This document shows positions 15,084-34,669 of a stretch of DNA of 50,597 bases, in pieces; position 1 is the stretch's first letter, and the number at the start of each line of letters is the position of its first letter. The translations under genes were made by a program, and so were the position numbers. The notes under the pieces are model-generated. The model saw only the letters and a list, made by a program, of their open reading frames with translations. It ran no database searches and was not told the DNA's origin. Source of the DNA: a virus; the IMG/VR virus record IMGVR_UViG_3300022935_000028, positions 1 through 50,597 of that record; one strand, 5' to 3'.

Positions 15084-15091
15084 TTACATAT

Positions 15092-16696: not shown

Positions 16697-17523
16697 AAAT
16701 ATTAGTAACAGGATACAAAGGGTTTATAGGTGCAAACATTGCACAATATTTACAAGCACAAGGCCACGAAGTAGAAGGATGGGACTATGTACCCAATGCT
16801 ATTCCAGATCCAGAAGGCTATGACTGGGTAGTACACTTAGGTGCAAATAGTTCTACAACAGAAACAGATGTTGAGCTTATATTAGAACAAAATTTAGAAA
16901 TGAGTACTAGACTTGTACAAGCTTGTGGTCATTTTGGTGTAAATTTACAATATGCATCTAGCGCAAGTGTGTATGGTAGCTGGAAACCTACACATTTTAA
17001 AGAAGATGGACCTCTCTTACCACAATCTCCATATGCTTGGAGTAAGTATTTGTTTGACAGGTTTGTAAATCAATATAAAGACGAATTTGATATTACAATA
17101 CAAGGCTTCCGTTATTTTAATGTATACGGACAATACAATGAAGAACAAAAGGGTAATATGGCTAGTCCGTTTACTAAGTTTACAAAACAAGCAAAAGAAG
17201 AAGGTTACATTGAATTGTTTAAAGGTTCAGAAAACTATTTAAGAGATTTTATTTGTGTAGAAGATGTTTGTCGTGTACACGAAAAGATGTTTGACGTTAA
17301 AGAATCAGGTATTTGGAATGTAGGAACAGGTCGTGCAGTAAGTTTTAAAACTGTGGCAGATTGTATATCAAGAAAATACGGATCAACAATTAGCTTTATT
17401 GAAATGCCAGAAAATTTAAAAGGACAATACCAAGAGTTTACTTGTGCAAACTTGACCAAGCTAAACAATACTATAGACATAGAATGGACAAAAATAGAGG
17501 ATTATATAAATGCAGCGTCTTGA
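16693..17523 (+). CDS. hldD: ADP-L-glycero-D-manno-heptose 6-epimerase
   Basis: The last pathway enzyme: it converts ADP-D,D-heptose to ADP-L,D-heptose with bound NADP. 276 residues (E. coli HldD 310). The Rossmann start is GYKGFIG (residues 7-13), and the SDR catalytic pair is Y114-x3-K118 in SPYAWSKYLFD. Stretches specific to HldD rather than general sugar epimerases are FRYFNVYG ... KGNMASPF, LFKGSENYLRDFICVEDV, NVGTGRAVSF and LKGQYQEFTCANLTKL. Nearly all are shared position by position with the E. coli enzyme as I remember it. It overlaps hldE by four bases, and its end overlaps the next gene by 14 bases, so the operon is tightly coupled. Confidence 0.95.
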   Translation: MKILVTGYKGFIGANIAQYLQAQGHEVEGWDYVPNAIPDPEGYDWVVHLGANSSTTETDVELILEQNLEMSTRLVQACGHFGVNLQYASSASVYGSWKPTHFKEDGPLLPQSPYAWSKYLFDRFVNQYKDEFDITIQGFRYFNVYGQYNEEQKGNMASPFTKFTKQAKEEGYIELFKGSENYLRDFICVEDVCRVHEKMFDVKESGIWNVGTGRAVSFKTVADCISRKYGSTISFIEMPENLKGQYQEFTCANLTKLNNTIDIEWTKIEDYINAAS

Positions 17524-17911
17524 AGGATTTGTTAAAAAAGGTTGGGGCTACGAATTAATTTGGGCTACTAACGACAAATACTGCGGTAAAATTTTAGTAT
17601 TTGAAAAAGCAGGAAATATGTTTAGTATGCATTTCCATAAAGAAAAAGATGAAACTTGGTTTGTAAATTCTGGTAAATTTAGAGTGCGCTGGATCGATAC
17701 AACAAACGCTAAACTTCACGAAAAAGATTTAGGTGAAGGCGAAACCTGGCACAATCCTCCATTGCAACCACATCAGATAATAGCACTTGTAGACGGTAGT
17801 AGTCTTACTGAAGTAAGTACAGCAGATAGTGTTGAAGACAACTATCGTGTTGCACCCGGAGACAGTCAAAGAGCACAAGAAGAATTAGAGAAAGACGAAT
17901 CAAATGGCTGA
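17510..17911 (+). CDS. small cupin (sugar-phosphate isomerase-like)
   Basis: 133 residues, one cupin barrel. Motif 1 is complete, G-x5-HFH-x4-E-x6-G (GNMFSMHFHKEKDETWFVNSG split across residues about 35-55), giving two His and one Glu as metal ligands. A second-half His is offered by NPPLQPHQI. The start GWGYELIW and overall length resemble the stand-alone cupins related to the mannose-6-phosphate isomerase type II domain found in sugar gene clusters. It lies between hldD and gmhB, overlapping both, so it probably acts on a sugar phosphate or nucleotide sugar of the same pathway. It cannot be assigned as the missing GmhA, which belongs to the unrelated SIS fold, but a replacement isomerase role is a testable idea. 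Confidence 0.88.
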   Translation: MQRLEGFVKKGWGYELIWATNDKYCGKILVFEKAGNMFSMHFHKEKDETWFVNSGKFRVRWIDTTNAKLHEKDLGEGETWHNPPLQPHQIIALVDGSSLTEVSTADSVEDNYRVAPGDSQRAQEELEKDESNG

Positions 17912-18518
17912 AATTTATTGGGGTGATGAATCACAACAACCAAACTATATTGCACCTAAATGTGTTGTAGGATTAGATCGTGATGGTGTTATAAACGTAG
18001 ACATTGGCGACTATGTTTATAAAATAGAAGATTTTGAATTTGAAGAAGGAAGTCTAGAAGCAATAGTAAAACTTAGACGTTTAGGCCATAAGGTTGCTAT
18101 TATAACAAATCAAGGCGGCATTGAAAAAGGTATATACACCCAAGACGATGTTGACACTATACATAATTATATGCTTGACGAATTTGGTAAGGCTGGATGT
18201 AGCAGTATTGATGGCTTATACTACAGTGCAAGTAGTGCCAAAAATGATATGTATGCAAAACCAAATATAGGAATGTTTAAACGCTGTGAAAAAGAAGTTC
18301 CGCACGTAAAATTTTCTAAAGGATTTTACGTAGGCGATAGGATACGCGACTTAAAAGCAGCAATGAAAATAGGCGCAAGACCAATTCTAGTGCGTACTGG
18401 GCACGGTAAAGAAACAGAAGAATTAATTAACAAACGTTTTACATATCAAAAGATAAAAAAAGCGACAAAAGTTTTTGACAACCTAGCCGCTTTTGTTGAT
18501 TATTTAGAAACGCTTTAA
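17904..18518 (+). CDS. gmhB: D-glycero-D-manno-heptose 1,7-bisphosphate 7-phosphatase-like HAD enzyme
   Basis: 204 residues, HAD superfamily. The DRDGVIN motif (D25, D27) is the phosphoryl-accepting site; TNQGG (68-72) is motif II; KP (119-120) gives the motif III Lys; GDRIRD (144-149) is motif IV. The order and the LDRDGVINVDIGDYVYK opening fit GmhB, which removes the 7-phosphate between the two HldE steps. Odd point: in typical GmhB a Cys/His zinc loop sits between motif II and the Lys; here that loop is YYSASSAKNDMYAKP with no Cys or His. The start overlaps the cupin by eight bases. The stop overlaps the convergent giant gene by four bases (18515-18518). The pathway role rests on family plus operon context. 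Confidence 0.9.
   Translation: MAEIYWGDESQQPNYIAPKCVVGLDRDGVINVDIGDYVYKIEDFEFEEGSLEAIVKLRRLGHKVAIITNQGGIEKGIYTQDDVDTIHNYMLDEFGKAGCSSIDGLYYSASSAKNDMYAKPNIGMFKRCEKEVPHVKFSKGFYVGDRIRDLKAAMKIGARPILVRTGHGKETEELINKRFTYQKIKKATKVFDNLAAFVDYLETL
18458..18494 (-). terminator. probable intrinsic terminator for the 2174-residue gene, inside the gmhB 3' end
   Basis: On the minus strand AAAAGCG pairs with CGCTTTT across a 23-base loop, and the stem runs into a seven-base T run. It lies about 20 bases past the stop of the giant gene at 18515, inside the convergent gmhB gene. The long loop makes it weaker than the hairpins at 2345 and 6616. Confidence 0.5.
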
Positions 18519-21500
18519 GCCTGCGCTTCACCCCATCTTAAAATTAAGTTAGCATCAATAGGGCTACCACTAACTTTATATACGTTAATTGCAAGCACAT
18601 CAGGACCGTTTGGATATGTACCTCGGCCTCCTAATGGTGTGTTTGTTAATTCTTTCAATTCTGAAAAATCAACAGTTGCTCTTTCTCCTGGAGCAGCAAT
18701 AAACGAAAATACTGTTTCCCCCGGTTCTGCATATTGTGCAGTACTTAGATTGAATACCGTATTAGAACCTGATGAAATACTTTGTGTGGATGTAGCATTG
18801 TAAAATACTTCATAGAAGGTTGTCCCACCATAGGTAATTTCATTTATTTGAGAAATTCTTGTACCTGCTGGCCAACTAGTATCACTACTATCAACTTCTG
18901 TATTTAACCCTACTCCGGCTGCTTCAGCAGCTTGCCAACTTGTTTGAGTATATGGCAGGTTGTTTGTTTTACCATATGTGGATCCAGTTCTTGCTTTAGT
19001 CATTGTGACTGTTTGAGTACCGCTAACGTCATTGCCGCCGGGCCCATTATAATCATTACTGACAGTTATTCTTGCAAAATATTCAAAATTGCCATAGCTA
19101 CTTAAACCATATTCATTATAATAACTTATACTTTGAATGGTTGTTCCTCCTGGAAAACTACCAGTCGAAACGCCTGTAATAGTGTCACCAACATTGATAT
19201 CGTTATTAAGAACGTCATTTGTAGTAATATAAAATCTGTCATTACCATCTTCTAATGTGTCTTGGTTGTTATTGCCTATTCTCTGTTGTAGATTAAATGT
19301 TCCACTTATTGCGCCTGCTACAACTGAATTACTATCAGTTACAACATTTGCCGTACCCCAGTTAATACCGCCGCCTGAAGCAATTTGTGCAAAACTTGGC
19401 TGTCCACCTTGTGCAAGTCCACTTAGTCCTGACCAGTTAACATCGGCCGGATTTTCAGGATAGTTATTAGGATTAAGCACACCTTCAACAACAATGCCGC
19501 CCAATGCAGTATAATCTGAAGTAACTTCTAAACTCTGTAACAGTAACTGGGCTCTGTTTAGTAGTTCACGCTCGCCTAAATCACCAACAAGAGCGTTTGA
19601 TACTGAAGGTGACAGTCTAATCAAGAATGCTGTTTGTTTAGTTGTACTAACTTCGATTCCTGTTTCAGCGTATGAGAAAATGTAACCACGATCTTCGTCA
19701 AAACCACCGTCTGTTAGGAACGCAGAACCCCAGTGGCTAATTAATGGTGTAATAGTTTGTGAAATTAATATTACACCTGTTCTTGCTAGATGAGTTGCAG
19801 CAGCACCTGCTACATATTGTCTAGTTGCTCCTGCTTGGAAATTCTCAAATGTTGCACCTCTAATACAACCAGTTAATCGATTACTTGTATCATCTTTTCC
19901 GGTAAAGTCTATAATTTCATTATCTATATACACAGTTCCTGATTCAGGAAAGAAACTACTGTCAACTAATGGTATAAAGTTTTGATCAGAGGACATATCT
20001 GCTGCAAGTTTGCCGTTTGGTCCTTCGTTTGTAACTTCATAACGTACAGGCAAGTTACCTGAACGCATAAATGCTTCTGTGTTTACGTTTGAATTACGCA
20101 TTCTGTGACAGAATACAAAATTACCATCTGAGCCACGTAACATAAAATCAATAAATCCAGCACCGTACCAACTGTATTGAATACCAATCATCTGCATCTT
20201 AGCAATATCAATATCGTATCCGCTTGGCCCTGTACCATCTAAACGATCTAGATTAAAATCACGCTGTTTAACTTTTTTGTCTACAACAAGGTTAGCTTTA
20301 GTACCAGTAATATTAACAACGCCGCGCCAGTCCGGAGTAACAGTTAGTTCTGTTTGACTGTTTACGTGTGTAACAACGTGTGTCATACCTTTGATAATAA
20401 TCCTATCCCCTGCATTTAACTGGTCACGGAATCTTGTGTTTGTACCTGTTACTAAGTTGTCATCTACTTGCATAGCAATAGTGCCTGCTAACTGACGTGT
20501 ACCTGTACGCTGATTTACACTTACATTTGTGCCGTCGTATTCCCAGAAAATACCATTTTGATCATCAAAGATACCCGAACGTACTGTAGCACCGTGCCAA
20601 CTAACAACACTCATTTGGGCTCCAAAACCGAGCACCGCATTTGTTGAACCTAATCTACGTTGTGCTCTAATTTTAAACGTTCTTTCGTCAACAATTTCTG
20701 CAACTTCATAATCAAATCTTGGAGGAACTGCTGTTTCATTTCCGCTGTTATAACCTGGAGTTTCTACACCTAGTATTCTAATTATACCACCTTGTTGTAC
20801 GCCGTGATCATTGTCATCAGTTACTACAGTAATTAATGATCCTACTTCAACGTCTTCTGCTGTTAAGCTACGCAAATCGTATGATGGTGCAAATAGCGCA
20901 CCAGTAGTATACATAATACCTTTACCTGACTGGTAACGAATATACTTTTTACTTTGACGTATTGCTTGCGCACCGTGTTGCGGGCCGCCTGTGCCTAACT
21001 GCACACCACCGTCATATGGTCTATGAATAAAGAATGAATCCGGTCTTGGATATACTGACCCTTCGATAGGTAGAGAATTAAGTGTTCCAGTGTCTATAGT
21101 TCCTTCTGCTCTTGCTTGGAATTCTAAAGTATCAATAGCAGGAATATTTGTTACAATATGTGATCCTGCCGCAAGATTGTGATTGTTTACGCCGTCATCT
21201 GATGTTATAGATGTAATAAAAGTATTTCCAGGAACAAGTCCGTGTGCATTTGGAAACTGTACTTGTAAAGTAGCTAACGCACCATATGTAATAGCTGTTG
21301 CAGCAGGCATAGCAGCAGTTGATGCTTCAGACATAGTTATTGTTGATATTAAATCAAAATAATTTCCGTATGCTGCTTCTTCATAACTTAACTGGGTGCT
21401 TGTAATTCCTCCAGAGGGATTTACATTTTGTACACGAATTATTAAATCATTTAATGGTGTTATTCCACCTAATTGACTACCAGGAATTACAATTCTATTA

Positions 21501-24500
21501 CCAATTTCATAACCAGTACCGTTATTAGTAATCAAAAGATTGCTATACTGTGCATTGTCTCTTAAAATACTAAATTCTGCGTTAGATCCTGTATTAGGAT
21601 CATTTACGCCTAACACGTCAATATAAATTCCGATTGGCTCGTAACCAGTACCACTAGTTGATATTCCGGTTATATTTCCTGTAACTAAGCTATCAATACT
21701 AGTTACTGTAATTGTTACATCATTGGCTGGAGATTCTCCGCCAAATACTGTTCCTGCAATAACTAACTCTTGTCCAACATTGTAGCCGCTTCCTGGAGTT
21801 TGTAAATCACCTACATACACTGCTGCGTTTTGACTTACATTAAATGTTGCTCCTGTACCTATTATATGTATAGCTGCTTGTTCTACAGTTTCACCATTAA
21901 AAGGAGTTCCAGATACTGTAAAATTAGTAATAGATCCATTGCCATCAACGTTATCTATAACAATAGTACAATCGTGAGTAGGTGAAAGGCCGCCTAAATC
22001 TGTGCCAGCTATTGTAAAATTTTCTGTTGCAAGATAGTTTACACCTGCATTTACAAATTCAGCTGAATATGTTGTACCGCTAGATGTAATATTAATTATT
22101 GCACTAGCACCAGATACAGACGTTGTAGTATATGTTACTCCGAAATATTCTCTAAAACTGTTAGGAGCAGTACCAGCAGTTGAAATTGAAGTAATGCCGC
22201 CATTTACATCTACTGCATCTACTGAAATATATAATGCTTGCACAGGGCTTGCTAAATCAGATAAAATACTTCCATCTACTTTTAATAAATCACCGACTAC
22301 ATATCCTGTACCTGCTATTGCTACTGTTGTAGAAGTAAAGTTATTATTTTCAAAGCTTATATTAAAACTTGCGCCTTCGCCAGTGCCTCCTGAATACGTT
22401 GCAGTTAATCCTGTAATATATTGATCTGTATTAATATGTGTTCCGAAGATATCAGCAGAAGCAATAGAATTTGCGCTATCTAAAACATCTGTAACTATTA
22501 TTAATGCATCGTGTTCGGGAGATGTTCCTCCTAAACTTGTGCCAGGAATAATAATTCTATCACCTATTTCATATCCTTCGCCGCCGTCATTTGCAATAGC
22601 GTCTAATACATATGTAAAACTAGAATCCGAAGCAAATGATATATCAAATCTTGCATTTTCCCCAATTGAGTCGCCATTATTGCCTGTTAAATTTGTATAC
22701 TGTGTTCTATTTCCTATTACAGGTTCTGTAAAAGGACTATTAAATGTAATAGTATTTCCTGCTATACTTTGAACATAGATTGCATATCCGTCGCCTCTAT
22801 CAAATGCTAAATCTTCAACTATTCCAGTAACGTTTTGTACATCAACTTGAGAAGTACCTGCTTGCACATCACCTTCAGTTAAAGCAGTTAGATATAGGCC
22901 ACCTCCTGCACTTTGATCAACAACACCAGTAACCTGAGAACCTAAAGGAATAGCACCATTTGCAGCTACAAGCGGAGCACCAATTGACGGCGCTTGATCG
23001 TCAAACGGAATAATAGTTGATCCTTGTAATACTGCTAGTTGGGTTACCATTGAACCTGCAGAGCCATTACTAACAACTTGTATATCAGGATTACCTATAC
23101 TTGCTCCAGTATAAAATCCAGCTTGTCTTAGCTGAGTATAAGTTGTGCTTAAAACATCTCCGTTAGTTGTTCCAACCTTTGATTTTGCAAAATATTGAAA
23201 CTGTGTTGGACTTACAATATTAACAATTACAAAAGATCCTTCAGCTCTTGCTGCACCAACTACACTATCTTCTAGTGCTTTAATTGTAATTGGAGTTCCT
23301 ACTCCAAAACCGTGAGCGCCATTTGTTGTCACAGTAATTAATGATTGGCCGACTCCGCCTGTGCCAGAAGAAGCATCTGTAGTTACAGTTACTACAGGAG
23401 TGTCTGTACCTGGTAATTCATAAATTGACGGATAACCTCTTAGAGTACCAATCGCCGCCCATTTTGTAGGCTGTAACCCATACTCAAAGTCAGCGTCAAG
23501 CATTGATAATGGATTTGCAACACGATTACGTTCAATAGCATCAGTACCAAAATCATAAGGTCTAGTAGTTACAACACTTTTACCATTTTCTATTCGTTCA
23601 ACAAAAATTTGTATTTCGTCGTCTGCACTGTGAGTAGATGTATCATAATTTAGTTCAATAGTTGTAACCGCATCAGTAGTTTGTAAATATGTGCCAAAAT
23701 CACTATCAGTAGTTGAATCGTTAATTAATACTTTTGCACCAGTAGCAACGTTTGTAAAATTATACATAACTTCGCTTCGTGTTGCATTTGATATAAGCAA
23801 TAATTCGTCTGCATTATAACGCCCTTGTATTTTTACATAACCTAATCCAATTGGAACTAAAACAGGTTGTGCAGTTAATCCATTACTTATTACATCAACA
23901 GTATTAAATGCAAGAGTTTTAATTTTTGCAGGGGCGCCTGCGGTAATAGCATTTGTTGTTGCACTCACAAATGTGTGTGTACTTGTATCCGAACTTACAC
24001 CTACATTAACTGTAATAGTAGTGCTTGTTGTACTAGTCACAGCAACAGGAGCATAATAAAATTTGTCTTTGCCGTATTCATTAGGTACACCTGATCTTCG
24101 AGGATAAGGATGAAGTGTAGCATTTCCGTCTAAACCGCAAGTAAAAGTAAGTCCTGCTGGCGCAATTTGTATTTCGTCTCCAGTACTAATACTATGAGCA
24201 CCTATTGTTAAAACCATTTCTCCTGTAGACGGGTTATAGTTTGCTCCTGAAGGTGTGTAACTTAGTGCAGTAACAGTTTTTGTTGCGTCTATAGTTTGAC
24301 TAACTTCAGTATTTAATGCAGAAAATGCACTGTTTGTAAATATATAATCTGTAATTAATCTTTGTATAAAATTATGTGCTGCAATTTCAGGTCCGCGATC
24401 TCCGTCGACCTGAGCTACTGTTTGATCCCAATAATACTTGATTACATTTCTAATAGATTGGTTGCCACCGTATCGCAAATCTTCTAAATATGCATCGATA

Positions 24501-25039
24501 ACATATCCTACATCTCTTTCACACTTTGCTTGACTTGTATTTGTATAGTTATAAAAAGTATCTGATACTGAGTTTGCTGTTGCACTTACAAATGTGTGTA
24601 CACTTGTGTCAGAACTAATACCAATGTTAACAGTAATAGTAGTTGATGTAGTATTTAAAATTTGTATAGCTTTATTATAATACGGATCGGTACCCGTATC
24701 ATTAGGTACACCGCTTGCTCTTGGATATGCGTGTGTAGTTGCGTTACCGTCTAGCTCACAAGTAAACACTAGTCCTTCTTCAGCAATAGTGATTGCATCA
24801 CCAACATTAAACGTATGAGAACCAATTGTAAGTACTAGCACTCCGGTTGTAGGAGTATATGTTGCGTTTGTAGGAGTATATTGAGCAGCGTTACTTATTC
24901 TGCTAGTAATGTATGCATTAGCTTCTTTTTGTATAAATGTTTTGTTACTTTCTAATAGACTATATGCATCAGGAAATCGATTTGATAGTGTTCCTAAGCC
25001 TGGTTTAAATACATAATTTTTTATTTGTGTTTTTGCCAT
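18515..25039 (-). CDS. giant repeat-rich virion protein, tail-fibre or baseplate type
   Basis: 2174 residues starting MAKTQIKNYVFKPGLG, an opening I associate with large structural proteins of marine T4-like phages. Visible parts: two copies of a beta module at about residues 52-160 and 240-365 (each with LTIG.H...GD.I.IA..GL.FTC and DGNAT.H.YPR.SGVPN), an intervening helical CERDVGYVIDAYLEDLRYGG segment shared with the 1694-residue protein, and five repeats of about 75-90 residues (genomic 21340-22690) with the signature GxGYxxGDxIxIxG...LGG.SP.HD. The C-terminal 900 residues are beta-rich and unlike anything I can name. No enzyme motif is visible. It is at the end of the minus-strand fibre block and has no obvious promoter of its own, following 25043-25930 by four bases. 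Confidence 0.85.
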   Translation of the reverse strand: MAKTQIKNYVFKPGLGTLSNRFPDAYSLLESNKTFIQKEANAYITSRISNAAQYTPTNATYTPTTGVLVLTIGSHTFNVGDAITIAEEGLVFTCELDGNATTHAYPRASGVPNDTGTDPYYNKAIQILNTTSTTITVNIGISSDTSVHTFVSATANSVSDTFYNYTNTSQAKCERDVGYVIDAYLEDLRYGGNQSIRNVIKYYWDQTVAQVDGDRGPEIAAHNFIQRLITDYIFTNSAFSALNTEVSQTIDATKTVTALSYTPSGANYNPSTGEMVLTIGAHSISTGDEIQIAPAGLTFTCGLDGNATLHPYPRRSGVPNEYGKDKFYYAPVAVTSTTSTTITVNVGVSSDTSTHTFVSATTNAITAGAPAKIKTLAFNTVDVISNGLTAQPVLVPIGLGYVKIQGRYNADELLLISNATRSEVMYNFTNVATGAKVLINDSTTDSDFGTYLQTTDAVTTIELNYDTSTHSADDEIQIFVERIENGKSVVTTRPYDFGTDAIERNRVANPLSMLDADFEYGLQPTKWAAIGTLRGYPSIYELPGTDTPVVTVTTDASSGTGGVGQSLITVTTNGAHGFGVGTPITIKALEDSVVGAARAEGSFVIVNIVSPTQFQYFAKSKVGTTNGDVLSTTYTQLRQAGFYTGASIGNPDIQVVSNGSAGSMVTQLAVLQGSTIIPFDDQAPSIGAPLVAANGAIPLGSQVTGVVDQSAGGGLYLTALTEGDVQAGTSQVDVQNVTGIVEDLAFDRGDGYAIYVQSIAGNTITFNSPFTEPVIGNRTQYTNLTGNNGDSIGENARFDISFASDSSFTYVLDAIANDGGEGYEIGDRIIIPGTSLGGTSPEHDALIIVTDVLDSANSIASADIFGTHINTDQYITGLTATYSGGTGEGASFNISFENNNFTSTTVAIAGTGYVVGDLLKVDGSILSDLASPVQALYISVDAVDVNGGITSISTAGTAPNSFREYFGVTYTTTSVSGASAIINITSSGTTYSAEFVNAGVNYLATENFTIAGTDLGGLSPTHDCTIVIDNVDGNGSITNFTVSGTPFNGETVEQAAIHIIGTGATFNVSQNAAVYVGDLQTPGSGYNVGQELVIAGTVFGGESPANDVTITVTSIDSLVTGNITGISTSGTGYEPIGIYIDVLGVNDPNTGSNAEFSILRDNAQYSNLLITNNGTGYEIGNRIVIPGSQLGGITPLNDLIIRVQNVNPSGGITSTQLSYEEAAYGNYFDLISTITMSEASTAAMPAATAITYGALATLQVQFPNAHGLVPGNTFITSITSDDGVNNHNLAAGSHIVTNIPAIDTLEFQARAEGTIDTGTLNSLPIEGSVYPRPDSFFIHRPYDGGVQLGTGGPQHGAQAIRQSKKYIRYQSGKGIMYTTGALFAPSYDLRSLTAEDVEVGSLITVVTDDNDHGVQQGGIIRILGVETPGYNSGNETAVPPRFDYEVAEIVDERTFKIRAQRRLGSTNAVLGFGAQMSVVSWHGATVRSGIFDDQNGIFWEYDGTNVSVNQRTGTRQLAGTIAMQVDDNLVTGTNTRFRDQLNAGDRIIIKGMTHVVTHVNSQTELTVTPDWRGVVNITGTKANLVVDKKVKQRDFNLDRLDGTGPSGYDIDIAKMQMIGIQYSWYGAGFIDFMLRGSDGNFVFCHRMRNSNVNTEAFMRSGNLPVRYEVTNEGPNGKLAADMSSDQNFIPLVDSSFFPESGTVYIDNEIIDFTGKDDTSNRLTGCIRGATFENFQAGATRQYVAGAAATHLARTGVILISQTITPLISHWGSAFLTDGGFDEDRGYIFSYAETGIEVSTTKQTAFLIRLSPSVSNALVGDLGERELLNRAQLLLQSLEVTSDYTALGGIVVEGVLNPNNYPENPADVNWSGLSGLAQGGQPSFAQIASGGGINWGTANVVTDSNSVVAGAISGTFNLQQRIGNNNQDTLEDGNDRFYITTNDVLNNDINVGDTITGVSTGSFPGGTTIQSISYYNEYGLSSYGNFEYFARITVSNDYNGPGGNDVSGTQTVTMTKARTGSTYGKTNNLPYTQTSWQAAEAAGVGLNTEVDSSDTSWPAGTRISQINEITYGGTTFYEVFYNATSTQSISSGSNTVFNLSTAQYAEPGETVFSFIAAPGERATVDFSELKELTNTPLGGRGTYPNGPDVLAINVYKVSGSPIDANLILRWGEAQA
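21340..22690 (-). repeat. five protein-coding GSGY/LGG repeats within the giant gene
   Basis: The encoded units run roughly 22680-22440, 22410-22200, 22140-21920, 21860-21640 and 21600-21380. Each has a G-rich turn followed by GD or GN, a hydrophobic strand, an LGG-x-x-P-x-(H/N)D element (less clear in unit 2) and a strand pair ending near a Gly-Ile/Ser. Related single units occur in the 296-residue protein at 30113 and in the 1694-residue protein, so this is a movable fibre module in this phage. Confidence 0.75.
23930..24890 (-). repeat. duplicated beta module near the N-terminus of the giant protein
   Basis: The segments 24544-24883 and about 23944-24304 encode two closely similar modules of about 115 residues. 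Shared landmarks are TPxxxxYxPxTGxxVLTIG, the FTCxLDGNATxHxYPR run and the end SSDTSxHTFVSAT. DNA between them encodes the helical CERDVG segment. The similarity looks like an internal duplication. Confidence 0.8.
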
Positions 25040-26395: not shown

Positions 26396-26403
26396 TATTT
26401 ATC
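26396..26403 (-). promoter_or_regulatory. T4-type late promoter octamer GATAAATA
   Basis: GATAAATA on the minus strand, overlapping the carbamoyltransferase stop and 21 bases before the ATG at 26374. AGGGG lies between. Confidence 0.65.
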
Positions 26404-28195
26404 AGTTTTTTAAGGTAATTAATTTTCCATATTCTGGCAAGTACAAATATTCAATTTCACTGTTGGCAAGAGTTCTTACAGCATCGTCTAGTGTTTCTAC
26501 TAATGGTTCACCACCTAAATTAAAACTTGTATTAAAAATTATAGGACATCCTGTCTTGTCTTTGAATGCTTTAATAATATCATAATAATGTGGATTTTGT
26601 TCTCTACTAACAGTTTGTATGCGACAAGTTCCATCTACGTGAATAATAGCAGGAATTTTCTCTTCGACACCCGGATGACAGTTTACAGCATACATCATTG
26701 TAGGAGAACTTTCCATACCGCGCAAATCAAACCATTCGTGTGCATCCTCTTCTAATATTGAACCTGCAAATGGACGGAAGTATTCTCTATGTTTAACATT
26801 ATTAACGTGATCTTTTCCATTAGGATCGGTAGGATCATAAAGAATACTTCTGTTACCTAATGCACGAGGTCCGTTTTCAGATCTGCCTTGAAACAGTGTT
26901 ACAATATTTCTGCCGGTAATTAACTCAACAATATCTTGATGTGTTGCATCTTGTATTTGTGCATTATATTTTTCAGCTGTTTCATTAATTTCAGAATTAT
27001 CAAAAATATATTCTGGTCCTAAATAAACATCATTTTGTCTGGTACGTATATTGGAATCGTTTGTAATACTATGATACCAAAACAGGGCGGCGCCCATAGC
27101 TGTTCCTGCATCATTAGAAACAGGTTCAACGTATAAATTAATACCTTCGTCTTCAAGTTCTTTTAGGTAAAAATAATTAGCAACACAGTTTAAACCGTAT
27201 CCGCCTGATATAACTACATTTTTATTTCCTGTTTTATTAACTGCATATCTAATCAAGTCAGCTACAGCTTGTTGGGTTTCGGTCTGTACTGCATATGCTA
27301 AGTCTCTTCTATTTTCTAAAAGTGTTACATCGTCATTATTGTGGTCATTTAAAAAATTATAAGAACAATAGTTTACAATAGCACCATTTGGATATCTTGG
27401 TATAATCATATTTCTATTGGTAGTTGGCAATGGAAAATCATTATCTTCAAATAATTTGGCAAATTTATCATTTGGTTTGCCATACGGAAATAGTCCCATC
27501 GTTTTACCTGCTTCAATAGAACTCCAACCGCAGTATTCTGTTACTGCTTCGTATGCTTTTACTATACCTGCTCTATCGTGTATTAAAACATCATATACTG
27601 CATCTTGTTCCCAATCTGCTGCATCGAAATCTTTCATAAACATATTTTGTATTATGCTTCTTGCACCTAGTGTTTTGTGTATAGTTTTTATGTTTGCTGG
27701 ATAATTACATTCGAAAATACTTTCAGTTTCCCATACAGTCATTTGTTCTTCAGGTGTTGCTGTAGGAAGAAATGTTCCTGCACCATCTACAATTACTGCT
27801 GTTGCATTTTCAAAACCTGAACGATAAAATGCCATTGCGGCGTGCATTTTATGATGAAGCATAGCAACATCAACAACTTGTGATCTTCCATCGGATTGCA
27901 TTCTAGAATTTATTAATCCAAGTTTTCTTGCTAATCCTGTATAAACATCTTCGCCAGTATAATCAAGCTTGCCTGCTGTGCCTTCTAGCCCTGTAGTATG
28001 TGCAATTACTAGATAATCTAATTTATCTGTATACTCTTTAATCTTTAACATCGATGCAAGAGGTCCTCCATCATACTTTTGACGGGTTAATCTTTCTTCT
28101 TCTATACTAAAGATTATTTCGCCATCTTTCATTAAGCACACACCTGCATTGTGTCCTCTAGCTATTCCAGCAATCCATAATGGCTTTTTGCTCAT
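26402..28195 (-). CDS. O-carbamoyltransferase, NodU/CmcH/TobZ family
   Basis: 597 residues, full length for the family. It should transfer a carbamoyl group from carbamoyl phosphate through an adenylate to a sugar or antibiotic hydroxyl. The N-terminal Kae1-like domain shows HNAGVCLM near the start, the metal ligands HHKMH (H114, H115, H118), VDGAG (D137), KTMGLFPYG and SGGYGLNC (330-337). The C-terminal domain shows QGRSENGPRALGNRS (436-450), REYFRPF (470-476) and NTSFNLGGEP (555-564). All key elements are present, so it is probably active. It is three bases from the SGNH-type gene, within the sugar cassette, with AGGATTT before ATG. I infer that its acceptor is the sugar added by the neighbouring GT9-like protein. 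Confidence 0.95.
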   Translation of the reverse strand: MSKKPLWIAGIARGHNAGVCLMKDGEIIFSIEEERLTRQKYDGGPLASMLKIKEYTDKLDYLVIAHTTGLEGTAGKLDYTGEDVYTGLARKLGLINSRMQSDGRSQVVDVAMLHHKMHAAMAFYRSGFENATAVIVDGAGTFLPTATPEEQMTVWETESIFECNYPANIKTIHKTLGARSIIQNMFMKDFDAADWEQDAVYDVLIHDRAGIVKAYEAVTEYCGWSSIEAGKTMGLFPYGKPNDKFAKLFEDNDFPLPTTNRNMIIPRYPNGAIVNYCSYNFLNDHNNDDVTLLENRRDLAYAVQTETQQAVADLIRYAVNKTGNKNVVISGGYGLNCVANYFYLKELEDEGINLYVEPVSNDAGTAMGAALFWYHSITNDSNIRTRQNDVYLGPEYIFDNSEINETAEKYNAQIQDATHQDIVELITGRNIVTLFQGRSENGPRALGNRSILYDPTDPNGKDHVNNVKHREYFRPFAGSILEEDAHEWFDLRGMESSPTMMYAVNCHPGVEEKIPAIIHVDGTCRIQTVSREQNPHYYDIIKAFKDKTGCPIIFNTSFNLGGEPLVETLDDAVRTLANSEIEYLYLPEYGKLITLKN

Positions 28196-28197
28196 AA

Positions 28198-29058
28198 TTA
28201 AAATCCTCTATAAAAACTTTGAAAGTTTGGAAGCATTCTATAACACGCTTCTCCAAACGTTTCTATTTCTGTTGTCTGTGTTCGTAACTCGTTTGTAATA
28301 TCTATCCATTTTTTTGCAGTTGGATGCAAAATCTGACTTATTCCTAATTTATCTTTAAGTATGTCATTCATCCAAGATAAATGTAAAAACACACTAGGGT
28401 GAGGGTCTAACCAAGGTTTTTCATCAACTTTACTATCATACCAATGATACATATCATCCTTGTTATTCCAGGTATATAGACCTATAGGTTGTGTCCATTT
28501 TTCTGTATTAAGATATTGTTTATAACAATCAAAATCAGAATATTTTTCAAATAAATTTACTTTATTTCTTTTTTCATTATATCCTGCTGCTTCTAAAAAG
28601 TCACTTCCTAAGTTTTCTATATTACCTATAGTTGTCATTGCATAATTACAGCCTATCTTATCTAATATTTCGGTTGCTGTTGCAATTGCATTTAGCATAT
28701 GCATTGTATAAGATTTTTCATCAAAGAATTCCATTACCCATTTTTTATCATACTTTTCTGTATTAATGTAATTAAAAATACTTCCTTTAGTTTTCCAACC
28801 TGTTGCATCATCACGAGGAGGATATCTAAATGTATGGTAATCATTACGGATATGACTAGTCCATTGTATAATTACAATGTCATCTTTTGTAAAATGATTT
28901 TTAGCGTGACATTCGATTAATCGTTCTACAATTGCTCTGTTGCCTAATCCAGCCCAGCCCCAGTTTTCATAGATTTCAAATTCTAAGCCTAAAAAATCTG
29001 CCCACGTCGGCCAAGAATATTTTGTAAAAGAACATCCAAATGTAAACAGTCTTGTCAT
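28198..29058 (-). CDS. SGNH/GDSL-type hydrolase or acyltransferase-like protein
   Basis: 286 residues. The N-terminal FTFGCSFT (residues 5-12) is a block I motif with S10 as likely nucleophile; the C-terminal LDPHPSVFLHLSW supplies the Asp/His pair of block V. Between them lies WGWAGLGNRAIVERLI with the block II Gly and Asn, and IVIIQWTSHIRND in place of block III. Such proteins remove or add O-acyl groups on sugars, and phages often encode GCS(F/Y)T variants. It is packed between the GT9-like gene and the carbamoyltransferase with one- and two-base gaps, so it probably acts on the same glycan. The start ATG follows the GT9 gene's stop by one base. The substrate is unknown. Confidence 0.82.
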   Translation of the reverse strand: MTRLFTFGCSFTKYSWPTWADFLGLEFEIYENWGWAGLGNRAIVERLIECHAKNHFTKDDIVIIQWTSHIRNDYHTFRYPPRDDATGWKTKGSIFNYINTEKYDKKWVMEFFDEKSYTMHMLNAIATATEILDKIGCNYAMTTIGNIENLGSDFLEAAGYNEKRNKVNLFEKYSDFDCYKQYLNTEKWTQPIGLYTWNNKDDMYHWYDSKVDEKPWLDPHPSVFLHLSWMNDILKDKLGISQILHPTAKKWIDITNELRTQTTEIETFGEACYRMLPNFQSFYRGF

Positions 29059-29059
29059 T

Positions 29060-30013
29060 TTATTTTTTCTTTTTAAGACTTTTAGATACCTCTTCGATTA
29101 TTACTTCTTCTATTTTATCGTTCATATGCATAATACCTTCATTTCGTCTGTCGGTAAATTCATCTATAGTAATTCTAATAGGACTATACCTTTTTACTCC
29201 CTCACCCATATCTAGAGTTTTAAATGTATCACTATCAGGATATGAAACATTTTCAACAAACGTACTGCCTAATACTACTGTAGAAGGCACATCAAAACTA
29301 TACGATATGTGTTGTCCTACACTATCACACCCTAAGAAGTGATCACATAAATTTATAATTGCAGACCATTCACGCAATCCAATTCCTTGTGGAATTGCAA
29401 CAGGATCGGTAATACCGTGTTTTTGAAATTCTATTGCAATTTCTCCCATAAAAATCACAGCGTATTTTTTTGATAATTTTTTTACAATATTAACTACACT
29501 TTCAGGTTCAAAGCTTCTTCCTCCAAAATCTGTAATCATACCTTTTTCTTCTATTGTACCTCGTCCAAAAGGTTGAAATACTATCACTTGATCTTTTTTT
29601 GTTTTTTCTTTAACGTCGTTGATTACATTTTTTGCAACCATAAGTTCTTGTTTGCTAAGACGTATTAATGGTTTTTGTAAATCTCTTACACCTTTGTTGT
29701 TTATTTCAATATCATATGCTTGAGATAAACTACATTTTTGGTTGTAATATTCCCACACTCTATATGGTTCAGGACTATGTAGAGTCATATGCTTTAGTTT
29801 ATCTTCAAACAAATTTTTATGCCAGACATCATATGCCTTTTCGTGCAAGAACGGATGGCCTTTATAAAAATCAGTTCCGCCCTCACAAACAATAATAAAA
29901 TTGTCGTCAGGATTTTCTTCTTTATATTTTTCTAGTGCAGGTATTGAACAAATAACTCTGCCGGCGCCTCCATTAATAAAAAAGGCGGAATCTCGTTTGT
30001 TTTCGTTAGACAT
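29060..30013 (-). CDS. GT9 / heptosyltransferase-like glycosyltransferase
   Basis: 317 residues, GT-B style. The N-terminal domain opens FFINGGAGRVICSIPALEKYKEENPD, comparable to the GxGD-hinged start of ADP-heptose:LPS heptosyltransferases, though here GGAGR replaces the usual acidic residue. The C-terminal domain opens with QPFGRGTIEEKGMI, passes VIFMGE and ends with LGCDSVGQHISYSFDVPSTVVLGSTF, where D230, S231 and H235 fit the GT9 nucleotide-sugar site (usual form DSGPMH). The call is based on this pattern, so GT9-like is safe while heptose as donor is inferred from the ADP-heptose operon elsewhere in the window. It has an exact TATAAATA upstream and heads a three-gene cassette. Confidence 0.82.
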   Translation of the reverse strand: MSNENKRDSAFFINGGAGRVICSIPALEKYKEENPDDNFIIVCEGGTDFYKGHPFLHEKAYDVWHKNLFEDKLKHMTLHSPEPYRVWEYYNQKCSLSQAYDIEINNKGVRDLQKPLIRLSKQELMVAKNVINDVKEKTKKDQVIVFQPFGRGTIEEKGMITDFGGRSFEPESVVNIVKKLSKKYAVIFMGEIAIEFQKHGITDPVAIPQGIGLREWSAIINLCDHFLGCDSVGQHISYSFDVPSTVVLGSTFVENVSYPDSDTFKTLDMGEGVKRYSPIRITIDEFTDRRNEGIMHMNDKIEEVIIEEVSKSLKKKK

Positions 30014-30049: not shown

Positions 30050-30057
30050 TATTTATA
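30050..30057 (-). promoter_or_regulatory. exact T4 late promoter TATAAATA for the sugar-decoration cassette
   Basis: TATAAATA on the minus strand, perfect match to the T4 late consensus, 36 bases before the ATG at 30013. AGGAT lies between. It implies that the glycosyltransferase, SGNH and carbamoyltransferase genes are expressed late, with virion genes. Confidence 0.8.
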
Positions 30058-30112: not shown

Positions 30113-31003
30113 TTATGATAATGGATTATCCATTCCTGTGATTTTCCAAGGATCGATAGTTTTTTCTTTTGATACTGAAATACTCAGTCCTGTGCCGTTT
30201 GCACTATTAGAAGACCAATAAACATCACTAAAAGTTACAGCAGGTTTATGATAGAATACTCTATTATTCTTTTTTGATGTTCCAGTAATTGCACCTGACT
30301 CATCTACTGAAGTTACCGTTAGTATAATATCACCTGCGGTAGTTCCCATTTTTATATCAGGATCACTAATACTAATTTTATCGCCTACAGCAAATCCTGA
30401 TCCTGCGTTGTCTAGTGTTATATCCCACGCGACACCATAGATTTTAGGAAAGTCGCGTAGCCAAGTTCTATAAGCTGTTATTTTTGCAGCTACAGGTGCC
30501 GGAAGATCTTCGCTATAAGTTCTGTCGCTATTACGTAAATCCGTATCTCTTTTTACTAATCTTTCATCCCAACTTATACCGTGCTCTAAATATGGAAAAG
30601 GTTTAACCCAACTTTGTGATGCAAAGTTATATTCTACATTTCTTTCTGAATAGGTATGGTTTGGCATTGGGGGATCAACCCGCACATAAGGATCTGATTG
30701 TGGAATATCTTCGGAAATAGTTTCAAGAACATCGGGATCGTAATCCTGCACTAAAGCACAAAGAAGTGTTTCTTCATTACAATCTACACGCACTGCTCTT
30801 TGATGATCAGTTTGATCATTAAAATTATCTATTTCTTCAACTGGTATAACGCCACCACTTAATTTATTAGTATCTAAATCTACTACTAATGCAATTTCAG
30901 CAGGACCTTCATATATCCTAGTTGCAGATTTAGCAAGATCATCTGTTGTATAGTATTGATCGTCTGGTAATTTGTATGTGTATTCTTTGCTTATATTTGT
31001 CAT
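30113..31003 (-). CDS. tail-fibre-assembly-type protein with an inserted fibre repeat
   Basis: 296 residues. Residues 1-190 and the last 13 align by eye with the 218-residue protein at 32568: both have (E/T)GP then a V.D.DT element, a Y.R....Y..A..SW..P line, (K)R...L..SD......PD/EDLP and Y R..LRD.P..YG, then a final (D/E)(P/A)WKI. This is the pattern of phage tail-assembly chaperone/fibre-assembly proteins. Unlike its relative, it has about 90 residues inserted between YG and DPWKI (191-283), containing a GSGFAVGDKISISDPDIK unit of the fibre-repeat type. It follows the Cys-rich gene at 31018 with a 14-base gap and GGAA before ATG, so the two are probably partners. A fold-helper or a structural role are both possible. 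Confidence 0.8.
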   Translation of the reverse strand: MTNISKEYTYKLPDDQYYTTDDLAKSATRIYEGPAEIALVVDLDTNKLSGGVIPVEEIDNFNDQTDHQRAVRVDCNEETLLCALVQDYDPDVLETISEDIPQSDPYVRVDPPMPNHTYSERNVEYNFASQSWVKPFPYLEHGISWDERLVKRDTDLRNSDRTYSEDLPAPVAAKITAYRTWLRDFPKIYGVAWDITLDNAGSGFAVGDKISISDPDIKMGTTAGDIILTVTSVDESGAITGTSKKNNRVFYHKPAVTFSDVYWSSNSANGTGLSISVSKEKTIDPWKITGMDNPLS

Positions 31004-31017: not shown

Positions 31018-31782
31018 TTAGTAATATACTACGTATACCATTCCGCCTGCACCCGGTGAACCACAGCAACAAGTGTTTCCTGCGGTTGCTACACCTTGGC
31101 CGCCACCACCTGGGAAGTGACCAAATCCTGCGCTGCCGCCTTGTCCGCAACAAGGATTCCAACTCATAAATGGATTTCCGCCTGTCATTGGTGCTGTTGC
31201 AGCAGTCATCCAAGCATCATCTCTACAATATTGTGTGCGTCTATGATGTCCCATAGTTCCTACCCAGCATTGGTCTACATTATCTGCTAAACCCCTGCAG
31301 CAGTAACACATAGAACAGCAGGTATAACAGTTGTTATCCATAAAGCAACACGCATACGGATAACTATAGTGACCGCCACAAACTTTAATAAGACAGGTTG
31401 TACCGCCGCCTTGACCTTGGTTACACACTGTTGAGCAGCAGCCGTGGCATCCACACGCACCGTTTGTCATTTGTGTTGAACATTGTGTGCTAGTAGCAGC
31501 ACAAATAATAATAGCATCGTTAGGACAAACATTTAATGCTTTGATAGCATAACCGCCATTTCCAGCACCTGGTCCTTGTATACAGCAACACCCGCCGGCT
31601 GCGCCGCCACCACCGGCCCATATTTCAAAAACAGCATAACTTACGCCTGCAGGAACAATCCAACAGCAACATTGACCGCCGTTTGAGTGCGATGTTACGT
31701 TTGTATTATATACAACAAACTCTCCCGGAACTATAGCTGTACCTTCTTCATAACCGTAAACATAATCTTTTAAACTTGCCAT
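31018..31782 (-). CDS. Cys- and Gly-rich adhesin-like protein 1
   Basis: 254 residues with about 31 cysteines (near 12%), many as CC or CCC runs. After a 35-residue lead comes the shared core NGGQCCCWIVPAGVSYAVF, then EIWAGGGGAAGGCCC, a form of the glycine-rich NGG...VPAGV...EVWGGGGG opening seen in phage tail adhesins. The middle is Cys-packed (ACGCHGCC, NNCYTCCSMCYCCRG), and the end is glycine loops (FGHFPGGGGQG, GSPGAGGMVYVVYY). I infer a fibre-tip or receptor-binding protein like the polyglycine adhesins of T-even phages. The cysteine content is unusual for a protein folded in a reducing cytoplasm and could mean metal binding or late disulphides. It is one of three paralogues here. Confidence 0.85.
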   Translation of the reverse strand: MASLKDYVYGYEEGTAIVPGEFVVYNTNVTSHSNGGQCCCWIVPAGVSYAVFEIWAGGGGAAGGCCCIQGPGAGNGGYAIKALNVCPNDAIIICAATSTQCSTQMTNGACGCHGCCSTVCNQGQGGGTTCLIKVCGGHYSYPYACCFMDNNCYTCCSMCYCCRGLADNVDQCWVGTMGHHRRTQYCRDDAWMTAATAPMTGGNPFMSWNPCCGQGGSAGFGHFPGGGGQGVATAGNTCCCGSPGAGGMVYVVYY

Positions 31783-31792: not shown

Positions 31793-32563
31793 TTAGCTAA
31801 CCACCGGGTAATAAATCATAACTAAACCACCTGCTCCAGCTGCGCCGCAAGCAAGAGTGTTGTTGTGAGTTCCTGCTGTTGCGCCACCGCCGCCTGGGAA
31901 AGCTGCGTAGCCGCCATAGTCACAACCAGCACATCCTGAAGCTGAACCTGAACAACCGTTTTTAGTTACTCTGCCGCCTGTAGGGGTAAATGGTGCGCTT
32001 GGCATAATTTGCCAAGATTGTGAAGAGCAAAAAGTATTTCCCTTTGCTGCTCCAGCTGATCCGCAAATACCCATTCCTCCGCACCAACTACCGCATTGAC
32101 AGTTTTGTCTGCCGCCGCAGCCGTCGCCTATCATAAACCAACAACAAGCACCGCCACAGACGCCGCCGCTTGCACAAGCCTGCACTGCGCCACCATTTAT
32201 TGAAACAAAACTGGGATATCCTGCACAGCCCCAGCATTTACAAGTGCTACAGTTAGTTGTTCCTGCAGCACATATAGTGTAGCTTTCGCCGCCGTCTCCG
32301 GACAATCCTGTGATAAATTTTCTTGAATACGAACCTGCGCCACCTGGCCAGCCACCCATACAGCAACAAGCACCAGAGCCTCCTCCGCCGCCTCCCCATA
32401 TTTCTACAGCAAACCAGGAAACACCTTGAGGTACAGTCCATAGACAGCAGGATCCGCCATTTTCAGCAGTTGTTGTATTAGTATTATAAACATTTAGAAT
32501 GTCATAATTTACTGTTCCGCCTACTCCTGCGCCGTATTCAAATAATGCTCTAAGTCCTGCCAT
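31793..32563 (-). CDS. Cys- and Gly-rich adhesin-like protein 2
   Basis: 256 residues, about 24 cysteines. It has the same plan as its neighbour: NGGSCCLWTVPQGVSWFAV then EIWGGGGGGSGACCC, a Cys-rich middle (NCSTCKCWGCAGYPSF, DGCGGRQNCQCGSWCGG) and a C-terminal FPGGGGATAG...CGAAGAGGLVMIYYP. The shared opening, FPGGGG loop and final GAGG-(hydrophobic) strand show common origin with 31018-31782, while the middle differs, as expected if this part contacts variable receptors. The SD is GAGGGA. It lies between the assembly-type gene at 32568 (five-base gap) and paralogue 1, so the group looks like one expression unit. Role inferred from glycine-rich adhesin resemblance; no enzyme motif is present. 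Confidence 0.85.
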   Translation of the reverse strand: MAGLRALFEYGAGVGGTVNYDILNVYNTNTTTAENGGSCCLWTVPQGVSWFAVEIWGGGGGGSGACCCMGGWPGGAGSYSRKFITGLSGDGGESYTICAAGTTNCSTCKCWGCAGYPSFVSINGGAVQACASGGVCGGACCWFMIGDGCGGRQNCQCGSWCGGMGICGSAGAAKGNTFCSSQSWQIMPSAPFTPTGGRVTKNGCSGSASGCAGCDYGGYAAFPGGGGATAGTHNNTLACGAAGAGGLVMIYYPVVS

Positions 32564-32567: not shown

Positions 32568-33224
32568 TTATCCCTCTTCCGGTGTTAAAGGAAAATATAT
32601 CTTCCACGCTTCAACTTCGTCCGCAGTTCCGTATCCATAAGTTGCAGGCAAATCACGCAATGATTGTCTGTAATCAATCCAAGGTTGCTTAACTGCATCT
32701 GGCATATCTGGCGATATTTTTCCATCACTTGCTGTTAAAGCATTATTGCGCTTTTCTATTGCCCAAGTCCAATCATATGGTGCTTGTACCAAGTCTGGGG
32801 TGTTCCAACTTGCGTTTGCTATATCATATGTTAAAGAATCTCTTTCATATGTTTGATCTACTTCTGTTATAGTATTGTATTCTAAAACGTGACCGCAGGG
32901 TAAAGTTTCTTGTGTAGTAGTTTGTCCGTCTACACTTACATTTGCAGCAAATACTAAACTCATTACTAACGGATCATCCGCTGCTACTATTTCTACTTTA
33001 GTGGTTCCTACTGGAGTAGGAACTTCTGCACCATTATCTACTGTAGTTAATGGTGGTGAACAAGAAGATATAACTCCTGTATCTGTATCTACAAATATCC
33101 AGCATCTATCCGGACCTGTATATGTTGCTGTAGCTGTTTTATTTTGACTCATTGACTGACTATACATACTGTCAGCGATATTATAAGTAAAATTTACTGT
33201 TACTTCTGTAATTGGACTTGGCAT
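32568..33224 (-). CDS. tail-fibre-assembly / tail chaperone-type protein
   Basis: 218 residues. The C-terminal 80 residues show the common phage tail-assembly-chaperone line: RNNALTASDG, PDAVKQPWIDYRQSLRDLP, ATYG and EAWKIYFPLTPEEG. The N-terminal part is beta-rich with two Cys in VISSCSPP and LPCGHV. It lies between two of the Cys/Gly-rich adhesin genes and is a shorter relative of the protein at 30113, so it probably helps fold, trimerise or attach those adhesins. In T-even phages the fibre-tip gene and its chaperone sit side by side, which fits. SD AGAGGAA before ATG. Family membership is inferred from the C-terminal pattern. Confidence 0.82.
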   Translation of the reverse strand: MPSPITEVTVNFTYNIADSMYSQSMSQNKTATATYTGPDRCWIFVDTDTGVISSCSPPLTTVDNGAEVPTPVGTTKVEIVAADDPLVMSLVFAANVSVDGQTTTQETLPCGHVLEYNTITEVDQTYERDSLTYDIANASWNTPDLVQAPYDWTWAIEKRNNALTASDGKISPDMPDAVKQPWIDYRQSLRDLPATYGYGTADEVEAWKIYFPLTPEEG

Positions 33225-33235: not shown

Positions 33236-33985
33236 TTATGTATATGTTACTTTAACAAAACCGCCCTGACCGTGGGTACCATAGCAGTATCCTCCGCCAC
33301 AAGCAACGGCGTGCATACCTGAACCACTTGGCCAAGATGCGCAAGATGGATCTAAGTTTTCACCAGTTCTTGACATCTGCGTACACTGATCGTTAGTCCA
33401 GCGTCCTGTTTGAGCGCCGCTATTTCTATATGTTATTAGGGCTTGTCTGCAAAAGTTGTTATTTAATATTGTTCCACCACCGCCCGGCATTACAACATCG
33501 CCTAAGCCGCAGCTTGATAAAATCCCCCAGCAACACGCTTGTCCGGCACAGTGTTGTCCTCTAGACATTTGTATGCATCCGCCAGTGCCTCCTGGTGCAC
33601 ACGCAATTGTTGAACCGCCGCCGGAAACGTCAATTACATAGGATGGAAACGCTTGGCTTGTAATTCCGCAGCAACAACCACAACATCCTGAGCCTCCTGA
33701 GCATATACAAAATACACACCCTTCTGCAATATCTACTGTCTTAATTGCGTAAGATCCGCTAGTAGGCATAACTCCTGCACGTTCACAGCATCTTGCACCA
33801 GGTCCGTCGCCACCAGCACCCCACAGTTCAAAGGTTGCTTTTGTAATTCCAGCAGGTACAGTCCAGGAATAGCCGCAGCCTCCATTTTGTGTGCCTTTAC
33901 CTGTATGTCTTACAAAGAAAACCCTATTTGGATTACCTATACTCGGCGGTGATAAATCTGATAAAAGTGAACGTAAACTTGGCAT
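33236..33985 (-). CDS. Cys- and Gly-rich adhesin-like protein 3
   Basis: 249 residues, about 22 cysteines. It has the same opening (NGGCGYSWTVPAGITKATF, ELWGAGGDGPGARCC) followed by the Cys cluster CVFCICSGGSGCCGCCCG, a glycine-rich middle (GGTGGCIQMSRGQHCAGQACC, MPGGGGTI) and a C-terminal GQGGFVKVTY strand. The N-terminus (MPSLRSLLSDLSPPSIGNPN) differs from the other two and may be its attachment part. It is the first of the three paralogues in transcription order, two bases after the small beta protein gene at 33987, with AGGAAG before ATG. A fibre-tip or baseplate adhesin is the best guess. Confidence 0.85.
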   Translation of the reverse strand: MPSLRSLLSDLSPPSIGNPNRVFFVRHTGKGTQNGGCGYSWTVPAGITKATFELWGAGGDGPGARCCERAGVMPTSGSYAIKTVDIAEGCVFCICSGGSGCCGCCCGITSQAFPSYVIDVSGGGSTIACAPGGTGGCIQMSRGQHCAGQACCWGILSSCGLGDVVMPGGGGTILNNNFCRQALITYRNSGAQTGRWTNDQCTQMSRTGENLDPSCASWPSGSGMHAVACGGGYCYGTHGQGGFVKVTYT

Positions 33986-34348: not shown

Positions 34349-34356
34349 TATTTATG
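34349..34356 (-). promoter_or_regulatory. late promoter octamer CATAAATA for the adhesin block
   Basis: CATAAATA on the minus strand, one mismatch from consensus, 23 bases before the ATG at 34325, overlapping the stop of the preceding gene. Confidence 0.55.
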
Positions 34357-34669
34357 CTGTTGTTTCAATTCCGAAAGCAACTACGCTTACGTTTGCTTGC
34401 GAAGATTGAACAACTATTTTTTGTGTTGCTGCTAAAACTATACCTGTTCTTTCTAGAACATTTTTTGGTAAAAGTTCTGTTTGATATTCGATGAATTCAC
34501 CGTTTGTGGGCGTATCTAAATCAGCAATCGCAAGATTAATTGTTGTCGGTTGTGAGCCTCTATTTACAATATTTACGCTCGCCACAGTATACGTTGATGC
34601 TGGGCAAGTATAGACAGTTGTATTTGTTGCTGCTGAAAGATCTTCGCCTGCTAGTCTACCTGTGGCCAT
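34352..34669 (-). CDS. small beta-rich virion protein
   Basis: 105 residues, MATGRLAGEDLSAATNTTVY. The middle VASVNIVNRGSQPTTINLAI and the later LPKNVLERTGIVLAATQKIV then VSVVAFGIE form a plausible small beta sandwich. The 109-residue protein at 45376 has a comparable sequence of strands (GMTLANLTDFMVYANVMI, MIPPNSTLHALAPAEKLIL), so the two may be distant relatives. It follows the 1694-residue gene by 15 bases with GGAG before ATG, hence same transcript. A minor fibre or baseplate protein is likely; nothing more specific can be said. Confidence 0.8.
   Translation of the reverse strand: MATGRLAGEDLSAATNTTVYTCPASTYTVASVNIVNRGSQPTTINLAIADLDTPTNGEFIEYQTELLPKNVLERTGIVLAATQKIVVQSSQANVSVVAFGIETTA

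Follow-up and report, generated by a model that had tools for sequence, protein, structure and literature searches.

The stretch analysed here, referred to as the window, is the full length of IMG/VR record IMGVR_UViG_3300022935_000028, a single virus record of 50,597 bases which comes from a marine virus of bacteria and carries the T4-type genes gp17, gp18, gp19, gp13, gp14 and gp15. On its minus strand lie three open reading frames (ORFs) spaced by one and two bases, where the initial annotation had placed them: a glycosyltransferase family 9 (GT9)-like glycosyltransferase of 317 aa, phrog_8954 (29060..30013), a predicted SGNH-fold esterase or acyltransferase of 286 aa (28198..29058) and a NodU/TobZ-type O-carbamoyltransferase of 597 aa (26402..28195). 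The same strand encodes three Cys-rich, Gly-rich tail-tip proteins, which are the proposed acceptors (31018..31782, 31 Cys, 12.2%; 31793..32563, 24 Cys, 9.4%; 33236..33985, 22 Cys, 8.8%), and two phrog_9740 or tail-fibre-assembly-like proteins paired with them (30113..31003 and 32568..33224). It is suggested, at a probability that we hold to be evenly balanced, that the three genes form a late virion-decorating cassette whose GT9-like enzyme glycosylates the phage's own Cys-rich tips, most likely from ADP-heptose.

The GT9-like gene is tied most closely to the group of Cys-rich tail-tip proteins, which the initial annotation did not mention, and less so to the carbamoyltransferase or the heptose locus. 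Of 91 loci, 81 encode a Cys-rich protein within 8 kb of the GT9-like gene and the remaining 10 end on the fibre side; in the single-cell virus O18 one of the neighbours has 73 Cys in 758 aa. At the same locus in six relatives without the GT9-like gene, no Gly-rich ORF of the exchanged block has more than 6 Cys. In a set anchored on a fibre gene, 14-38 Cys were found in 19 GT9-positive modules versus 1-5 in the GT9-negative modules, which are few (three after deduplication). Searches by tblastn with cyanophage tips found GT9-positive phages only, one match being the second contig of a GT9-positive single cell; the same search of isolates with a tip protein of the window found nothing, and a profile of the tips held no stretch conserved enough for a scan of the collection.

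The pairing extends to unrelated scaffolds in the phages of other hosts, given what is seen in Aeromonas phage HJ05 and in the Vibrio N4-like phages K479, D505 and SBP1 when compared with homologues that lack the GT9-like gene. All four have a distant GT9-like gene that keeps the GGxGR arginine described below. In HJ05 it lies directly 3' of the gene for a protein with 23 Cys in 559 aa; in the three Vibrio phages it directly precedes the gene for a tail protein whose Cys number 39-41, with 19 inside about 240 aa of helical-looking repeat. In the vibriophages PG11, 1.261.O and 1.169.O, where this place holds no GT9-like gene, the homologous tail proteins (25-27% identity) share 0 of 13-17 aligned Cys with those just described. 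No Hld or carbamoyltransferase genes were seen near the Aeromonas and Vibrio GT9-like genes in the annotated stretches read, where most genes are hypothetical. Pattern scans with HJ05, SBP1 or A5 queries gave hardly any new distant GT9-like loci.

The GT9-like protein had no match in Pfam and a best E-value of 0.12 in NCBIfam, and its PHROG family, 8954, carries no functional label. The initial annotation had likened it to ADP-heptose:lipopolysaccharide (LPS) heptosyltransferases and had proposed structure prediction as a check. When this was run, the AlphaFold model (predicted local distance difference test score 86, predicted template modelling score 0.87) matched GT9 structures far above all else, with Z-scores of 23.7 for 3tov, 21.2 for WaaF, 19.5 for TibC and 19.4 for WaaC; a chloroplast NDH subunit of the same fold scored 18.4-18.9 and the next other fold 12.7. 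The donor-binding motif of the C-lobe, D-[ST]-x-x-x-H, aligns with DTGLSH of WaaC, and its D230, S231 and H235 are invariant in 30 of 30 aligned members. The likeness thus stands for the predicted fold and the donor motif but not for the catalytic Asp of the N-lobe (D13 in WaaC, D110 in TibC), which is the base in both enzymes, the role of D110 in TibC being known (PMC4358343). At this position an Arg19 that is equally invariant (30/30) was found, within a GGxGR motif; a hidden Markov model alignment places this Arg on the Asp of MGDVLHTLPAL. Two alignments of the family held no four conserved Cys to match the iron-finger motif of TibC. As modelled, the protein has the GT9 fold and probably the donor site, with one defining feature of the family absent. 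Since all members have Arg in place of the catalytic Asp, classing it with the ordinary LPS heptosyltransferases would be wrong.

The SGNH protein gave a good model whose top structure matches are SGNH/GDSL enzymes (Z 12.6 to TesA); it carries G8-C9-S10 in block I and D/E-x-H220 in block V, with S10 and H220 invariant, and no phage homologue was found in the isolate collection. Several lineages have two tandem SGNH genes between the GT9-like and carbamoyltransferase genes (L018, L030, L043, L065 and similar loci). The carbamoyltransferase is complete, as had been claimed: both Pfam domains are present (Carbam_trans_C and Carbam_trans_N at E=1e-60 and 4e-27), the translation contains HHKMH (HHxxH) and GPRALGNRSIL (GPRALGxRSIL), and its closest solved structures are O-carbamoyltransferases. 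As a determinant of Cys-rich tips, this enzyme was considered and rejected, given that other carbamoyltransferases occur in GT9-negative modules with Cys-poor tips (G054, L236) and that none is found near the Vibrio and Aeromonas GT9-like genes.

An exact T4-type late promoter core, TATAAATA, lies on the minus strand at 30050..30057, 37-44 bases upstream of the ATG of the GT9-like gene, which confirms the promoter first noted there. The core is not enriched across the window, where 6 copies were seen and 9.6 are expected from shuffling; that idea was rejected, and the copy is informative solely by its position. Among 64 distinct related loci, 11 have an exact copy within 150 bp upstream of the GT9-like gene, with 1.6 expected from shuffling, and nearly all of these copies are at -25 to -60. 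A chance origin of the copy before the GT9-like gene is unlikely, and given this recurrence late expression of the cassette is a fair reading.

The ADP-heptose genes on which the initial annotation relied for a donor are real, and lie on the plus strand: an HldE-like fusion of heptose-7-P kinase and heptose-1-P adenylyltransferase (15557..16696; NF008454 8e-83, TIGR02198 1e-48, TIGR02199 4e-48), an HldD-like ADP-heptose 6-epimerase (16693..17523; TIGR02197 9e-70), a cupin, phrog_7851, that is constant in these heptose clusters (17510..17911), and a GmhB-like heptose-bisphosphate phosphatase of the HAD type (17904..18518; PRK08942 2e-39), the HldE, HldD and GmhB matches being strong, yet all below curated cut-offs. 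No match to the sedoheptulose-7-P isomerase GmhA was found among the genes scanned in this 50.6-kb fragment, and GmhA may be supplied by the host. The label 'phosphoheptose isomerase' is carried in RefSeq (T4-GC 306, phrog_1238) by PSSM2_311 of P-SSM2 (L002:13113-13457) and by genes of the same name in S-CAM1, S-SSM7 and Sf-FS3. The P-SSM2 protein is a small HAD phosphatase that matches HAD-type capsule phosphatases (EcbF/BcbF, 1e-8) and not GmhA, so that on sequence grounds the label is likely a mis-annotation hiding a GmhB substitute, and the cyanophage sets probably also have no GmhA and a phosphatase in the GmhB position. The small phrog_7851 cupin is labelled cysteine dioxygenase; P-SSM2 has a copy (L002:13438-13794), and a relative also follows the NUDIX gene in several GT9-negative modules.

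Whether the two loci co-occur in relatives had been set as a test of their link, and the refuting outcome, a lack of co-occurrence, was not seen. HldE accompanies the close GT9 homologue (identity at least 39%) in 23 of 23 records from isolates or single cells, mostly in one run of genes with it; one copy is partial, at the end of its contig. In S-CAM1, S-CAM3, P-SSM2, S-SSM7 and Sf-FS3 the GT9-carbamoyltransferase pair and the heptose genes form one run of tail fibre, tips, GT9, carbamoyltransferase, adenylyltransferase, kinase, phosphatase, cupin and HldD (opposite strand), after which gp13-15 mostly come next; S-SSM7 and Sf-FS3 have extra genes between, and P-SSM2 has none of gp13-15 in the stretch read. 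Among IMG/VR relatives selected by terminase alone, a two-domain HldE was found in 11 of 11 with the GT9-like gene and 0 of 5 without it, the latter counted if the contig covers the locus (Fisher p ~0.0002). This does not hold throughout the wider set of GT9-positive contigs, where HldE and HldD are each found in 30 of 50, and the heptose genes are a frequent, not an obligatory, companion of the GT9-like gene.

In close relatives the flanks of the locus are fixed, with gp13-gp14-gp15-NUDIX on one side and the fibre genes (34352-39769) on the other, and all between them is swapped. The GT9-positive modules contain tips, small fibre genes, the adhesin and Hld genes along with the GT9-like and carbamoyltransferase genes, to which SGNH is added in some; in the window a large adhesin-like virion protein is encoded inside the exchanged module (18515..25039, minus strand). 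The GT9-negative modules have different tips, and the two that were scanned (G054 and G061) have 2-oxoglutarate (2OG)-Fe(II) oxygenases and tryptophan halogenases, kinds of enzyme able to modify the side chains of amino acids. In alternative or mixed modules of this locus, runs of 2OG-Fe(II) oxygenase, DUF6445 and tryptophan halogenase-like genes adjoin tail-tip genes (L178:4540-13680, L176:3445-9025, L196 and L200), which suggests other modifications of virion proteins. The NUDIX hydrolase gene (15059-15532 in the window) is directly 3' of gp15 in every terminase-selected relative read, whichever module comes next. In nearly all of these relatives, short contigs around gp17 included, an adenylyltransferase-like domain is also encoded by an ORF of its own, about 260 aa long (G054, G056, G057, G069 and others). 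An HNH endonuclease-like ORF (10825-11160) of the window has the tail sheath gene on one side and the gene at 11143-11643 on the other. The terminase of the window has its top isolate match at 53.6%, in Pseudomonas jumbo phages such as PA5oct, and relatives at 85-100% among public viral contigs of up to 275 kb; the virus is distinct from known cyanophages.

A sequence of events can be proposed from these observations. The phage HldE, GmhB and HldD would make ADP-heptose, or the host would where the phage has no such genes, and during late assembly the GT9-like enzyme would move the sugar from an ADP-sugar, most likely ADP-heptose, to the Cys-rich tips encoded beside it. The carbamoyltransferase would then carbamoylate the transferred sugar, which we infer to be heptose, and the SGNH enzyme would add or remove an acyl group, with the tips, adhesin, decorating enzymes and heptose genes being exchanged as a unit among related phages. 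Given that the GT9-like gene pairs with cysteine itself and that the catalytic Asp has become Arg, a linkage through sulphur is suggested, and the tips are possibly S-glycosylated. In its most specific form this proposal would make the GT9-like family a cysteine S-heptosyltransferase that coats tips of about 20-70 Cys each with S-linked carbamoylated heptose. Arg would stand in for the Asp base because the sugar is accepted by a thiol(ate), and unrelated scaffolds would receive the same chemistry in marine T4-like phages, cyanophages, Vibrio N4-like phages and an Aeromonas phage. This last form is put forward tentatively, and we think it rather more likely to be wrong than right. Several observations weigh against the proposal as a whole. 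Besides the invariant Arg19 and the small number of GT9-negative modules compared for tip Cys, 20 of the 50 GT9-positive contigs have no HldE although several exceed 100 kb; the GT9/HldE trait needs 5 changes on the terminase tree, but well-supported branches hold only 1 of the 4 independent contrasts; and the association between the GT9-like gene and the Cys-rich tips is one among linked genes. The tip Cys are moreover conserved in register, 63% of them in majority-Cys columns, which fits disulfides and metal binding too; the idea that their positions are free to vary was dropped on this alignment.

It is possible, given this register, that the Cys-rich tips are adhesins stabilised by disulfides or metal and that the GT9-like, carbamoyltransferase and SGNH enzymes act on another virion protein such as the adhesin at 18515-25039, the more so as the adhesin and small fibre genes share the exchanged block. 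However, the pairing recurs on unrelated scaffolds in Vibrio and Aeromonas phages with no such adhesin, carbamoyltransferase or Hld genes nearby, and homologous tail proteins hold about 19 Cys in the repeat region only when the GT9-like gene is present, so that this explanation is considered rather unlikely. The use of another ADP-sugar on the tips, with the Hld genes serving a different purpose, would account for those GT9-positive contigs that have neither HldE nor HldD, and the donor pocket is not readable from the model. Yet close relatives gain and lose HldE and the GT9-like gene together, the nearest folds of known function use ADP-heptose, and the Vibrio and Aeromonas hosts of the phages without Hld genes are expected to make ADP-heptose; a different donor is thus quite improbable.

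The usual view of the cyanophage 'LPS gene cluster' would instead have the cassette alter host LPS or capsule during infection, in receptor masking or superinfection exclusion. WaaC and WaaF, both GT9 members, act on LPS, a host-LPS role has been given to such genes in pelagiphage and cyanophage papers (PMC7029224; PMC3037559), and in P-TIM68 and S-T4 the Hld genes lie inside long glycosyltransferase clusters without this GT9. Against this, the cassette has a late promoter and a fixed place among tail genes, there is a single glycosyltransferase and no long glycan pathway, and the consistent pairing with Cys-rich tips would be left unexplained. In addition, the LPS of marine Synechococcus WH8102, the host of the GT9- and Hld-positive phage Sf-FS3, contains neither heptose nor 3-deoxy-D-manno-oct-2-ulosonic acid according to a review of LPS composition (PMC4515613), which makes host LPS the poorer acceptor; a plastocyanin scan meant to reach cyanobacterial genomes returned one contig of an archaeal metagenome-assembled genome. 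A role on host LPS is therefore judged unlikely, and the virion, which the initial annotation had preferred over host LPS, is still the better acceptor.

Decoration of the virion tips by a GT9-like enzyme would resemble several known systems in part. WaaC and WaaF share with the phage enzyme the fold (Z 19-21) and, in the C-lobe, the D-S/T-x-x-x-H motif, whereas WaaC Asp13 aligns with the invariant Arg19 and the phage gene is found among tail fibres, not LPS core genes. For the virion glycosylation of mycobacteriophages we know of no Cys-rich partner. A phage-encoded glycosyltransferase acts on virion proteins there (Freeman 2023, cited in PMC12619734), and the glycosyltransferases are other ones and the acceptors are capsid and tail-tube proteins. 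The autotransporter heptosyltransferases TibC and AAH have a GT-B fold of the GT9 type, and their ADP-heptose donor and protein adhesin acceptor, modified at many sites, parallel those proposed for the phage enzyme (eLife 2014, PMC4358343). Unlike TibC, with its Asp110 base, iron-finger, dodecamer and autotransporter acceptors (PMC4358343), the phage protein carries Arg where the base would be, has a shorter chain without the four conserved Cys and is paired with Cys-rich tips. The NodU/TobZ/NovN O-carbamoyltransferases have both domains and the hallmark motifs in common with the phage enzyme, which differs in its virion context. SunS-type enzymes are GT-A-type glycosyltransferases of family 2 that use UDP-sugars on small bacteriocin substrates. 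Such glycocin S-glycosyltransferases set a precedent for enzymatic S-glycosylation of cysteine (PMC9877059, PMC6405829). Each element has thus been described singly, protein heptosylation for TibC, virion glycosylation for mycobacteriophages and cysteine S-glycosylation for glycocins; in the open-access literature searched, no report was found that combines them, nor any on S-heptosylation or on cyanophage tail fibres rich in Cys.

The cyanophage 'LPS genes' T4-GC 304, 305, 307 and 308 are the same heptose genes as those found here. Their co-occurrence was noticed in 2010, when the choice between 'functional or stuffer DNA' was left open (Sullivan 2010, PMC3037559), and that work did not connect the GT9 gene (T4-GC 302) and the Cys-rich tips to them. 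On the reading favoured here, genes whose purpose has been open since then would gain a specific, testable job, and the tips with which the phage recognises its host would replace host LPS as the expected acceptor. The rule of a GT9-like gene beside a Cys-rich tail protein may mark tip proteins and possible glycosites in unannotated phages. If the cysteines are the acceptors, virions would have a system of heptosyl S-glycosylation, a new kind of viral sugar coat, and this would change what sequence is taken to say about host range, receptor binding and evasion of surface defences.

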